DNA of 64,000 nt from the NCBI GenBank assembly GCA_026413225.1, contig CM048552.1, positions 28,791,501 to 28,855,500 of the forward strand, written 5' to 3'. The stretch's first letter is position 1; each line of letters begins with the position of its first letter. This DNA is from Otis tarda (lineage: Eukaryota; Chordata; Aves; Otidiformes; Otididae). The notes under the pieces are model-generated. The model worked only from the letters and a program-made list of their open reading frames with translations. It ran no database searches and was not told the DNA's origin. The position numbers and the translations under genes were made by a program. This document shows positions 5,401-32,358 of this stretch, in pieces.

Positions 5401-5560
5401 AAACCAAAACAAAAAAAAACCAAAACCAAAAAAAACCAAAACCAAAACAAAACAAAACAAAATAAAATAAAATAAAATAAAATAAAATAAAATAAAATAA
5501 AATAAAATAAAATAAAATAAAACAAAGTAAAGCAAAGCAAAGCAAAACCAAACCAAACCT
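5401..5560. repeat. Compound pentanucleotide microsatellite (AAAAT)n with AAAAC/AAACC flanks
   Basis: The core 5460-5520 is about twelve uninterrupted AAAAT units. To the left the unit drifts through AAAAC to AACC-containing A-runs (5401-5459). To the right it drifts through AAAGT/AAAGC to AAACC (5521-5560). The plus strand of the whole tract is almost free of G on the left side. Because the unit is 5 bp, the minus strand has no stops and yields artificial Phe/Leu/Ile-rich frames, including the 163-aa frame at 5358-5849. Those frames are not genes. A tract of this kind is expected to be length-polymorphic. Confidence 0.95.
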
Positions 5561-16500: not shown

Positions 16501-18250
16501 TTTAAAAACTTTATAGCAGTCTTGACTTAGTCACACTGAGAACTAGTAGATTTCTTCAAATTTTCTTCTAAATACACACATGCAAGTAGTATTTTACACA
16601 ACTGCTTTAATATTTGTGGTTGTCACCATTCTGAACTATTTGAGCTTACCATTTTTAACATAGCTCTTTCTTATGAAATATTAAAGGAACTAATTGCTCA
16701 TAACTGTTAAATGTGAAACCATGAGATAGCATGTCCTATGCAAAGCATGCTTGGTTAGCATGTCTCTGCTTGGAAACTGCATTCTTCATGAAACTCCAAA
16801 TCAATATCCTTAATTCTAAATATCATTTGCCACAAACATTCATTTCATTGATGAAAAATTCCCACTATTTTTTCAAAATTCCTCTTTAAATCCACCTGAA
16901 CATCTACAGTAAGTTATTTGGACAATATTGCAAGATTTTTAGAAATGCTTTCTACTGTCAAAGAAATTTTTATTAATCAGAATTGAAAGTTATTTATTTT
17001 TTATATTCTGCTTTCTAACAGTTCACATCTAGTGCAATTTGGTACAGTACATGAAACTATTTAAATATTGCCTTCAACTTTTTAGAGCCTTTTGTTTTAC
17101 CAGACTTCTGTGTTACTTCACTATGCAATTTACTGAAGGCTAGTAATTATTAGGACATGTGGTAGGCGTTTATCACCAGTAACATCACACAACCCACTCT
17201 ATGATCAAGATACAATAGGGCAAATGGTACAATTAAAGGCACATTCTTTGGTGCATAACAATAGAAGCCTTGTGACATGGCAAGATTAAGAAAAGACTCA
17301 AACATCTTTAAAACTACTCATTACCACCAGTTAAAATGTGCATGTCTGACCTTTATGGTAATCAGTAGTACTCCACTTGTGCACAATATAGCTAAATAAG
17401 CTTTATTTTAGACACACAGAATTCTTTGCGGTGACCTGCAGTTAACTTAGCCGATCTCAGAGCTGATGCTTACAATGAATCAACCCATCAGTGTTCACAA
17501 TGGTAGGTCATCATCTTTATCAACCAGTTTATGATGACAGGCAGAAAACAGTACTGTAGATTTTCCTGCCAAGTGGAGTACTATTTAAGTGTTGACTGCT
17601 ACATACATCAGATTAACAAGGTTGCAAAGTTACCAAGAATCCTGTTCCCTGAGGTGCAGATTCACCCTGTGGTGCTATTATACCATAAGGTATATCAAAG
17701 ATAATTGCTTAGTTTATTATCCTGTTGTCTTTTATGTCAGCCCCTAATTGTGAATTCAGAAACCTCTTGCTCTCCCAGTTCCTTATGGACCTGTTATTAA
17801 CCCCATTCATTTTAATTAGGATTTATTACTATTTTTATTATTGAAGTGTAGAATTTTTAAAAAATAGATGTTTCCAGATAACCCACTAGTTCTATATGAT
17901 TTTATAGAACCATCCCAACAGAAAAGTGCAAGGTGGCTATGTCACAGCTGTTACCTTCCCCATGGTCCTGAGGTATGGTGGTCAAGCTTTCACGGTTCTT
18001 GTGCTGCACTTGCACAGAGCAATTTAAGCACATTCCTGTAAAACACTACATGAAACCTGCCAAACCTAGAAACAGTTAAAAAACTATGGCCTGGCTAGTA
18101 TAGATAAGTAGTCATTCATAATTCCTCCTAATGTATACAATATTAATCTGTATGTACCTAAAAAATCTGACTACTTCCTATACTTCAAAGTCATTGCCTT
18201 TGCTACGAGACCTAGAAAGTGCTTCAGGATTCATTATGACATGTGGAATA
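10501..18250. other. Long AT-rich noncoding spacer
   Basis: This is nearly 8 kb without a recognisable gene or repeat. The longest ORF is 114 aa (11759-12103, plus), within chance expectation. A good acceptor-like tract ends at 14814 (TTGGTTTCAG) and is followed by 42 codons open to a stop at 14939-14941. No partner donor or known domain was found, so it is not called. Homopolymer tracts occur near 15009 (A) and 15369 (T). Confidence 0.55.
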
Positions 18251-18410
18251 TATAAGCAATAAGGCATGACAGGGAGTGTGGTTATCATAAGATAATCACA
18301 CCCCTGGGTCATTACAAAGCATGAGGTGCAGCCGAGCACCTCTCATTCCCCCTGGGGTGTGATTATATCATGATAAGCACACTTCATGCAGTTACCTTAT
18401 TGCTTTTATA
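18251..18410. repeat. 160-bp imperfect palindrome (MITE-like or ancient hairpin repeat)
   Basis: The ends are TATAAGCAATAAGG (18251-18264) and CCTTATTGCTTTTATA (18395-18410). Internal paired blocks are AGTGTGGTTATCAT (from 18275) against ATGATAAGCACACT (to 18383), and ATAATCACACCCC (18292-18304) against GGGGTGTGATTAT (18354-18366). The centre is a perfect 7-bp stem, GAGGTGC/GCACCTC, around the loop AGCCGA (18330-18335). Arms of about 75 bp match over most of their length with a few mismatches and small bulges. No coding capacity lies inside. The shape fits a non-autonomous TA-inserting DNA transposon, or one of the old palindromic repeat families kept as conserved elements in vertebrates. The family was not identified. 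Confidence 0.85.
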
Positions 18411-22035: not shown

Positions 22036-22087
22036 CCTGAGGCAATCACATCCTGATTGTATAGCAATCTTCTAGCCATTTATAATA
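22036..22087 (+). repeat. 52-bp dispersed repeat, copy 1
   Basis: This segment, starting CCTGAGGCAATCACATCC and ending TTATAATA, recurs at 24478-24529 in the same orientation with 5 mismatches in 52 and no gaps. Similarity stops at both edges. It is probably a fragment of an old interspersed family or a local duplication. The family is not recognised. Confidence 0.8.
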
Positions 22088-23184
22088 TATTTTGAAATGT
22101 GATTTATTAATAACTATATTACATAATACAGGGCCACAGATTAATCCATGAATCTATTGCTAGCCTTTCTTATGGAAAAAAAAAAAAAACCAAACATTTC
22201 TTCCTATTCCTTTTCCTTGTCTTGTAGATGTTTTTACTAAACCATTTCTTGTTTGTCATCCAACAGCTACTTAGAGACTCTAATAGCCTACCTCAAAGAA
22301 GGCTTGTAAAAGCCTTTTAAAATACAGAAATTAGAATATGAACATTTGTTCCTCTTTTGAAATATATTCAAGCAATTCTAACCAACCAGTGAAATAGTTT
22401 TGCTTTGTAAAGCTTGCCCTACCAGAACCTGTTTACTCTCTTTTAGTGACTTTATTAATCTTTTCTAAATTATGTTAACCAATTAGGTTCATGCAGCTTT
22501 TACTGCCCTTTAATTCTCTTTCTAAGCACAAATATAACTTTTGTTGCCTTCCAAATTTAGTTTCGTAATTATTTCCTAATGAGAATAAGAGGCAATACAT
22601 TTGCTAGCCATTTGGCCAGTTCATATTTGAATTCTCTCCAACTTTAAAGGATTCCTCCAAATACAGAGCATGGCAGTCTCACATATTCTGGGCCAACTTC
22701 AGATCTGCAAGATATTTACAGGTGTCACGCTTTCTGTAAGGAGAGACACCTGGTTCCATGTAAGGAATACAAGTAGTTGGAATAAAATGGCTGGGTTGAG
22801 TAAATACTCGTCTAGTAAACAAATACAGGATTCATGAACTAAGAAACAACTAAATAATAAACTTATAAATAAATTAGTTTTACTAGTTTGAATCAAAACT
22901 GTATGGTCAGAGCCCACTGATGCCCACTACTGCTCCCAGGTACAGAGTCCAGAGCCACTCTGCCTCAACAGCAATGTATCTGAGAGCAAAATTATCTTTT
23001 TTCTTCTCCCAGACACAATGTTGCTGACATATAAAATATATTCAGATTGGAGCAGAATTGTAATTAGGATAAATATTTGATGTCCAAAGTGCTATCACGC
23101 TAATATAGATAGGAAAGGCAGAGATTTGTATGTAGGTAGTGTATTGTTGTCGCAGTCTTCTTACACTTATGCCGTATTTTTAAA
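22088..23184. other. AT-rich noncoding spacer left of the tandem array
   Basis: It holds an A-run at about 22173-22187. A 72-aa minus ORF (22699-22917) shows no domain. No repeat or exon was recognised. Confidence 0.5.
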
Positions 23185-23960
23185 GATTAAATAAATAAGA
23201 AAGATGGACTGAAGCAGGCAATATCAAAACTACTTTACTTCAGCTGAGTTGTTAAGAGAATGTTTCAGAAAACGGAAGTACTAAAGCAAATAGTTACACC
23301 TCGGGAACGGTACAGTATTGCAATCTATCGGTAATGATGGAATTAGGCTCAGCAGAAACAAATTCATACTTTTTTACTGATTAAATAAATAAGAAAGATG
23401 GACTGAAGCAGGCAATATCAAAACTACTTTACTTCAGCTGAGTTGTTAAGAGAATGTTTCAGAAAACGGAAGTACTAAAGCAAATAGTTACACCTCGGGA
23501 ACGGTACAGTATTGCAATCTATCGGTAATGATGGAATTAGGCTCAGCAGAAACAAATTCATACTTTTTTACTGATTAAATAAATAAGAAAGATGGACTGA
23601 AGCAGGCAATATCAAAACTACTTTACTTCAGCTGAGTTGTTAAGAGAATGTTTCAGAAAACGGAAGTACTAAAGCAAATAGTTACACCTCGGGAACGGTA
23701 CAGTATTGCAATCTATCGGTAATGATGGAATTAGGCTCAGCAGAAACAAATTCATACTTTTTTACTGATTAAATAAATAAGAAAGATGGACTGAAGCAGG
23801 CAATATCAAAACTACTTTACTTCAGCTGAGTTGTTAAGAGAATGTTTCAGAAAACGGAAGTACTAAAGCAAATAGTTACACCTCGGGAACGGTACAGTAT
23901 TGCAATCTATCGGTAATGATGGAATTAGGCTCAGCAGAAACAAATTCATACTTTTTTACT
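23185..23960 (+). repeat. Tandem array: four identical 194-bp units
   Basis: Units start at 23185, 23379, 23573 and 23767 with GATTAAATAAATAAGAAAG and end in CATACTTTTTTACT. All four appear identical base for base. Each unit carries four CpGs (for example in ACCTCGGGAACGGTAC and CTATCGGTAATG) and no useful ORF. The left flank (TTTTTAAAGATT) resembles the internal junction (TTTTTACTGATT), so the exact left edge is ambiguous by about 10 bp. The right edge breaks to GAGATCTGG at 23961. Identity this complete implies very recent expansion, active homogenisation, or an assembly duplication. There is no spacer, so this is not a CRISPR array. Confidence 0.97.
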
Positions 23961-24477
23961 GAGATCTGGTCTATATGGAATATCTAGGTTGATTATAGGG
24001 GATGATGTGGAAAACACAAAGAAGCCATGAAACATCCTGTAATGCTAGGGATAATTTGATGTACCTTGCTTTAGTTTCAGAACCTAAGCCCTATTTCTCT
24101 GACTCAATTCTGGTTCAGTCTGGTATTCCTTAGGCAGTCAAAATTCCCCCTTAAATTAATACAAGCTTCGCCTAAATGTGAAGCAAAGGTTTAGTAAACA
24201 AGGGAAGATTATTTTGTTTTCTGAATATAAATATATTAGCAAAAACATATATCTATGCTTTAGTATGTCCATAATTATAAAAATCTTAATAATGATTATA
24301 TACGACAAAATTACGGAAGTGTTATTAGTGGTAATTTTAAAGGCAAAAACCTGCAAAATAAAGGGTATAGATTTCTCTTTTTACAGGGATTTACAGTACT
24401 CATCAACTTGTATGGTTCACATTAGCATCCAGTGACATTGCTTTGTCTGTATATATTTCTAGCTGTCAACAGAATGT
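23961..24477. other. AT-rich noncoding spacer right of the tandem array
   Basis: The ORFs at 24156-24356 (minus) and 24178-24435 (plus) are rich in Ile, Lys and Phe because of AT-rich composition and overlap on opposite strands. They are judged non-coding. Nothing else was recognised. Confidence 0.5.
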
Positions 24478-24529
24478 CCTGAGGCAATCGCATCCTGATT
24501 CTATAGCTATCTTCTATCCTTTTATAATA
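24478..24529 (+). repeat. 52-bp dispersed repeat, copy 2
   Basis: This is the second copy of the segment at 22036-22087 (47 of 52 identical, same orientation). The two copies lie either side of the 194-bp tandem array, about 2.4 kb apart. Confidence 0.8.
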
Positions 24530-26308: not shown

Positions 26309-26480
26309 AGAATCATCAAATCATAGAATGGTTTGGGTTGGAAGGGACCTTTAAAGGCCATCTAGTCCAATCTCCCTGCAAAGAGCAGGGACAACTTCAA
26401 CTAGATCAGGTTGCCCAGAGCGCCGTCCAACCTGGCCTTGAACAATACCAGGGATCTTGTCGTCTACAATGAGCAAGCAG
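26309..26480 (-). mobile_element. CR1 LINE 3'-end fragment
   Basis: The plus strand carries AGAATCATCAAATCATAGAA, then GGTTTGGGTTGGAAGGGACC, a TCTAGTCCAATC block, GAGCAGGGACAACTTC, CAGGTTGCCCAGAGC and CCAACCTGGCCTTGAACA. This is the ordered reverse complement of the avian CR1 3' UTR and the end of ORF2, so the element is on the minus strand. The leading ATCA/AATCATAG pair is the CR1 tail microsatellite. The copy is 5'-truncated. Homology fades after about 26455 and the far edge is approximate. Confidence 0.92.
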
Positions 26481-32194: not shown

Positions 32195-32358
32195 GAATCA
32201 TAAAATTGTTAGGATTGGGAAGGACCTTTAAAGGTCTTCTAGTCCAACACCCCTGCAAGGAGCAGGGACATCTCCAACCAGAGCAGGTTGCTCAGTGCCT
32301 CCAGCCTGGCCTTGAATGTTTCCAGGGATGGGGCATCTACCACCTCTCTGGGCAGCTT
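32195..32358 (-). mobile_element. CR1 LINE 3'-end fragment
   Basis: The plus strand shows GAATCATAAAATTGTTAGG, TTGGGAAGGACCTTTAAAGG, TCTTCTAGTCCAACACCCC, GCAAGGAGCAGGGACATC, CAGAGCAGGTTGCTCAGTG, CTGGCCTTGAATGTTTCCAG and CATCTACCACCTCTCTGGGC. These are in the order of the reverse-complemented avian CR1 3' region. The element is therefore on the minus strand, 5'-truncated, and somewhat better preserved than the copy at 26.3 kb. The edge near 32358 is where the GGGCAGC block gives way to unique sequence. Confidence 0.93.

Follow-up and report, generated by a model that had tools for sequence, protein, structure and literature searches.

How a short array of perfectly identical repeats came to lie in bird DNA that is otherwise unique, and whether it has a role there, is the question raised by positions 23185-23960 of the Otis tarda sequence analysed here (C1:28791501-28855500, a stretch of 64 kb referred to below as the window). 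A first-pass annotation, made from the letters of the sequence, had described four perfectly identical 194-bp tandem units at this site, and a letter-by-letter comparison bears this out. The units follow each other head to tail with zero mismatches: with unit 1 (23185-23378) as reference, units 2 (23379-23572), 3 (23573-23766) and 4 (23767-23960) each agree with it at 194 of 194 positions. Neither the units nor the edge features described below carry a strand assignment. Identity at a lag of 194 bp runs over 584 bp (23185-23768), and the array therefore ends at 23962, after 4 x 194 bp plus 2 bp. These two bases, GA at 23961-23962, overlap with the first two bases of the unit and would represent the microhomology of the duplication proposed below. 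TRF delimits the array slightly differently (23177-23962, 4.1 copies, 99%); the eight additional bases on the left of this call are an imperfect match (TTTTTAAA versus TTTTTACT). Among the five TRF rows obtained for the window, the array is the only one with a unit longer than 16 bp. Moreover, the longest other exact direct match in the window (lags of 30-2000 bp, the array's own lags of 194, 388 and 582 bp excluded) extends over only 34 bp and belongs to a simple repeat at 5459, so the identity of the units is not due to chance.

The junctions are informative with respect to the origin of the array. The left edge reads ...TTTTTAAA|GATTAAAT, the inside junction between units ...TTTTTTACT|GATTAAAT and the right edge ...TTTTTTACT|GAGATCTG. 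In the inside junction the right end of the unit is joined to its left end with GA shared between them, which is the pattern left by a plain tandem duplication. The left breakpoint, TTTTTAAAGA at 23177-23186, resembles the breakpoint at the end of the unit, TTTTTACTGA, in 8 of 10 positions. Such a match has a frequency of 0.0009 (0.09%) in random position pairs, and it carries moderate weight because the 10-bp frame was picked after looking; the exact part of the match comprises 2 bp, and an identical dinucleotide occurs in about 7% (0.07) of random pairs. A whole number of units is likewise expected if the array started as a tandem duplication, while for a random segment of a longer array the length would be 0-2 bp above a whole number of units in only about 3 of 194 cases.

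The exact edges, the identity of the copies, the unique flanks and the whole number of units with its microhomology all support a local duplication. Most probably, the array is a single-locus large tandem repeat for which a stretch of unique and apparently non-coding DNA was duplicated locally and subsequently grew to four copies. In a first step, an error of replication or repair would have connected the right-hand end of a 194-bp stretch back to its left-hand end and thereby generated two copies. This join would have taken place at the 2-bp microhomology GA, inside the imperfect 10-bp match of the two breakpoints. In a second step, the number of identical copies may have risen, by slippage or unequal exchange, to the four of the assembled haplotype. 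The array most likely has no role in the bird and is a neutral by-product of replication or repair. Its copy number, which is known here from one assembly, probably varies between individuals. It counts against this explanation that copy number and identity both rest on a single assembly and that the single-copy ancestor is not among the DNA seen.

The main rival to a local duplication is an assembly artefact, in which the true copy number differs from four or in which differing copies were made alike by polishing. With one haplotype at hand, consensus polishing could indeed yield perfect identity in a repeat of this unit length. However, the array is located inside a 216-Mb contig of an assembly of 116 contigs (contigs 1-4 measure 216, 165, 127 and 83 Mb), and the 64-kb window does not contain any N. 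Furthermore, assembly collapses tandem arrays more often than it multiplies them, and a junction with microhomology resembles a real event. We consider an artefact of this kind unlikely.

To place the unit within its genome, we searched 1,198,220,595 bases in 116 contigs. At E-values up to 10 the 194-bp unit gave four matches, which are the four units of the array and thus represent one candidate place, and the left (285 bp) and right (338 bp) flanks were each found at one genome place only at E-values up to 0.001. This search skips very common words and its counts are lower bounds; therefore, a positive control of 201 bp with a CR1-like piece of the window was run, which gave at least 3645 first-look candidates, 40 of which were scored, the window's own copy among them. 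Since the unit and both flanks are single-place and the CR1-like control is multi-copy, the unit is, within the limits of the assembled genome, locus-specific and not part of any dispersed family of satellites or transposons. This agrees with the first-pass annotation, which had called the surroundings otherwise unique, a description that holds within this genome for the unit and for the 285 and 338 bp on its sides. It had also proposed a search of the unit against the same genome, which leads to this one place only, and the statement that the unit is not a recognised satellite fits the same result.

Several known classes of repeats and foreign DNA were rejected. A transposable element requires dispersed copies, whereas the unit and each flank occur at one place compared to at least 3645 candidates for the CR1-like control. 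Satellite DNA, for which more than 50 units are required in the sections of a chicken survey drawn on here (PMC4992247), or else many places, is not compatible with four units at one place and nothing more in the assembled genome up to an E-value of 10. With regard to a bacterial, phage or viral origin, one exact pattern taken from the unit had 0 matches in the collection viral_contigs and another had 0 in genome_contigs, and blastn of 23100-24050 against phages gave no match. A direct repeat of 52 bp (22036-22087 and 24478-24529, 47 of 52 positions alike, 2442 bp apart) has one copy on each side of the array. That these copies are the ends of an element holding the array is a weak idea, as the high similarity is confined to those 52 bp.

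Alternatively, the locus may have received a fragment from another source, derived from a satellite or a circular DNA array. The head-to-tail arrangement of identical units and a CpG content above the window mean would be in line with such an event, as would the unit length, which is close to the nucleosome-repeat length. Nevertheless, a search at E-values up to 10 revealed no second site of the unit in the assembled genome, the array has the length of a whole number of units, and inspection of the edges by eye revealed no target-site duplication beyond the 2-bp GA. We therefore regard an insertion as very improbable and retain local duplication as the preferred explanation.

Other repeated sequences of the window are of different kinds. 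Two pieces at 26319-26455 and 32196-32329, which we assume to be CR1-like, are 80% alike, and the second has at least 3645 first-look candidates in the genome. An imperfect palindrome of 162 bp (18249-18410), about 70% alike between strands and hairpin-like, is perhaps the relic of an old DNA transposon. A simple repeat of the type (AAAAC)n/(AAAAT)n occupies 5401-5558.

The identity of the copies also sets a limit to the age of the array. At avian substitution rates of 1.9-3.0e-9 per site and year, 0 differences in 776 bp of a star-like array indicate an age below about 1.3-2.0 Myr at 95%; with a tenfold higher rate of change at CpG sites, this limit falls to 0.9-1.5 Myr. Assuming 2e-9, 46% of such arrays would remain without any difference after 0.5 Myr and 4.5% after 2 Myr. 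The lack of differences is thus compatible with any age up to about 1-2 Myr at these rates. As perfect identity is plausible at a young age, gene conversion is not needed. Of the earlier suggestion of a recent expansion or homogenisation by gene conversion, a recent local expansion remains the best reading, with recent meaning less than about 1-2 Myr, and the gene conversion can be dispensed with.

We then asked how common such arrays are. As a control, TRF was applied to contigs 1-4 of the same genome, in 20 stretches of 10 kb (one of them with 62 N). It gave seven rows, all with short units of 21-28 bp, and units of 30 bp or longer were absent. In the chicken genome galGal4, 10,136 arrays with units longer than 60 bp are reported, covering 0.238% of the genome (PMC4992247). 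The table of this survey labels the respective row as satellites of more than 50 units (PMC4992247). Its mean array length of about 245 bp, calculated with 1.04 Gb, fits short arrays only, and we therefore infer that two row labels in this part of the survey are swapped. The 9,987 'different units' given there were counted at a similarity threshold of 100% (PMC4992247), so this number is no evidence for each unit being restricted to a single locus. The chicken count corresponds to about one short array per 100 kb and to about two in 200 kb, compared to 0 in our control stretches. This is not far off, yet four perfect copies are not an everyday finding at such a scale. Following the definition of large tandem repeats in the parts of the survey considered (units between 60 bp and 2 kb in length, present in 2 to 49 copies; PMC4992247), the array with its four units of 194 bp belongs to this class. 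The unit exceeds the range given for minisatellites (11-60 bp in PMC4992247 and 10-100 bp in PMC4411736, as far as these sources are drawn on here), and units above 100 bp are termed macro- or megasatellite in one of them (PMC4411736). Hence, four perfect 194-bp copies represent the neat end of an ordinary class that is common in one bird, the chicken. In the open-access literature searched, no report of a '194-bp' chicken tandem repeat was found, the only match for a bird satellite of 194 bp concerned monitor lizards, and none of the titles among the matches listed concerned a tandem repeat in the FOXP2/MDFIC-TFEC interval of birds.

The content of the array and of the window gave no sign of a function. 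Six of 27 segments scored with a codon table and four of 42 ORFs were scanned against Pfam, and no exon of the window was recognised among these 10 candidate stretches: nine had no match at E-values up to 1, and one had two weak matches below their cut-offs. A coding array was rejected, as the longest open stretch in the six frames of 23177-23990 comprises 49 codons and 194 is not a multiple of 3. For the window, Rfam gave 0 matches at the gathering score, and 0 tRNAs were predicted with bacterial settings. No stable fold was detected for one unit, calculated for + strand DNA (z 0.93; equally good or better folds in 164 of 200 shuffles), and no nucleosome-like 10-bp periodicity was apparent, the array being at the 60th percentile of the window bins. 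Each unit contains four CpGs, as the first-pass annotation had stated, with an observed/expected ratio of 0.70 compared to 0.20 for the window. As an oddity of the neighbourhood, however, this count is weak: in the rest of the window, 17 of 325 non-overlapping bins of 194 bp contain at least four CpGs. The CpG excess of the unit is mild.

Gene families recognised in a search of the genome allow the array to be placed among its neighbours. Exons of the MDFI family were found at C1:28874143-28874397 and C1:28886723-28886980 on the minus strand, a FOXP coiled-coil exon at C1:29058116-29058250 on the minus strand, and an exon with the Pfam domain PF11851, presumably the C-terminus of the MITF/TFE family, at C1:28437506-28437865 on the plus strand. 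The names FOXP2, MDFIC and TFEC are given to these genes on the assumption that the usual vertebrate gene order applies. The same three families are also grouped on contig 13 (18.51-18.93 Mb) and on contig 27 (3.60-3.67 Mb). Such an arrangement is to be expected for paralogous clusters, which derive from old vertebrate genome duplications, and it helps to name the genes. Compared with solved structures, the FOXP exon matched two FOXP3 sequences only (E-values of 0.0065 and 0.047), and its identity as FOXP2 therefore rests on synteny and the vertebrate gene order. The array appears to sit between MDFIC and TFEC, which appear to face each other tail to tail. The closest MDFIC exon matched is 58.7 kb away from it, and the exons of FOXP2 and TFEC lie at distances of 242.7 and 376.8 kb, respectively. 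Outside the window, a weak match to the MDFI family that contains one stop (C1:28879692-28879946) lies between the two exons of MDFIC and is perhaps a pseudo-exon or a chance match.

This neighbourhood contains genes for transcription regulators, and in chickens the crest phenotype is caused by an intronic duplication of similar size (PMC8022956; PMC8824791). Both would speak for a functional multi-copy regulatory element, such as an enhancer or a methylation-sensitive repeat, that is under selection and acts on MDFIC, TFEC or FOXP2. Nonetheless, the array lacks any positive sign of this in the form of an RNA family, a stable + strand fold or a periodicity, and its CpG excess is mild. Moreover, the human FOXP2 downstream enhancers are described, in the part of the source used here, as sitting between FOXP2 and MDFIC (PMC6498672), whereas the array is located on the far side of MDFIC. 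We thus find a selected regulatory element hardly credible, and the earlier proposal of a methylation-sensitive or regulatory minisatellite finds no support here; the unit is also longer than the minisatellite range. By analogy, it could be speculated that a regulatory unit in the MDFIC-TFEC interval was amplified in a lineage- or breed-specific manner and that its copy number tunes a neighbouring developmental gene, but this would be a very long shot. A regulatory effect may be possible, but there is no pointer to one in the array.

As it appears here, the array is a clean-edged single-locus repeat. It could be used as a length marker and to illustrate neatly a duplication with junction microhomology, caught before its copies diverged. 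It would be of greater importance only if differences in its copy number went along with differences in the expression of a neighbouring gene.

Known systems resemble the array to different degrees. The crest duplication in the HOXC10 intron of the chicken, 197 bp long (PMC8022956) and later corrected to 195 bp (PMC8824791), has an almost equal unit size and is likewise bird DNA outside coding sequence. It is, however, a duplication in a different gene neighbourhood, whereas the array comprises four copies; furthermore, the crest piece is described as conserved and tied to a phenotype (PMC8022956), while the array is known from its sequence alone. In the chicken, 3,292 duplications are reported among structural variants detected by PacBio in 10 animals, with no mention of tandem repeats in the passages considered (PMC9632285). 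A large minisatellite of 8.6 kb near human FOXF1, which is polymorphic in people (PMC4411736), is also a tandem array near a forkhead gene, and slippage and microhomology-mediated copying are discussed for it in the passages considered (PMC4411736). The array differs from it in its length of 0.78 kb and in its position, as MDFIC separates it from the FOXP2 exon, which is 243 kb away. The definition of the large tandem repeats of the chicken covers units of 194 bp in four copies (PMC4992247); the comparison with them is one of size and count by definition, and the units of the array are in addition all identical.
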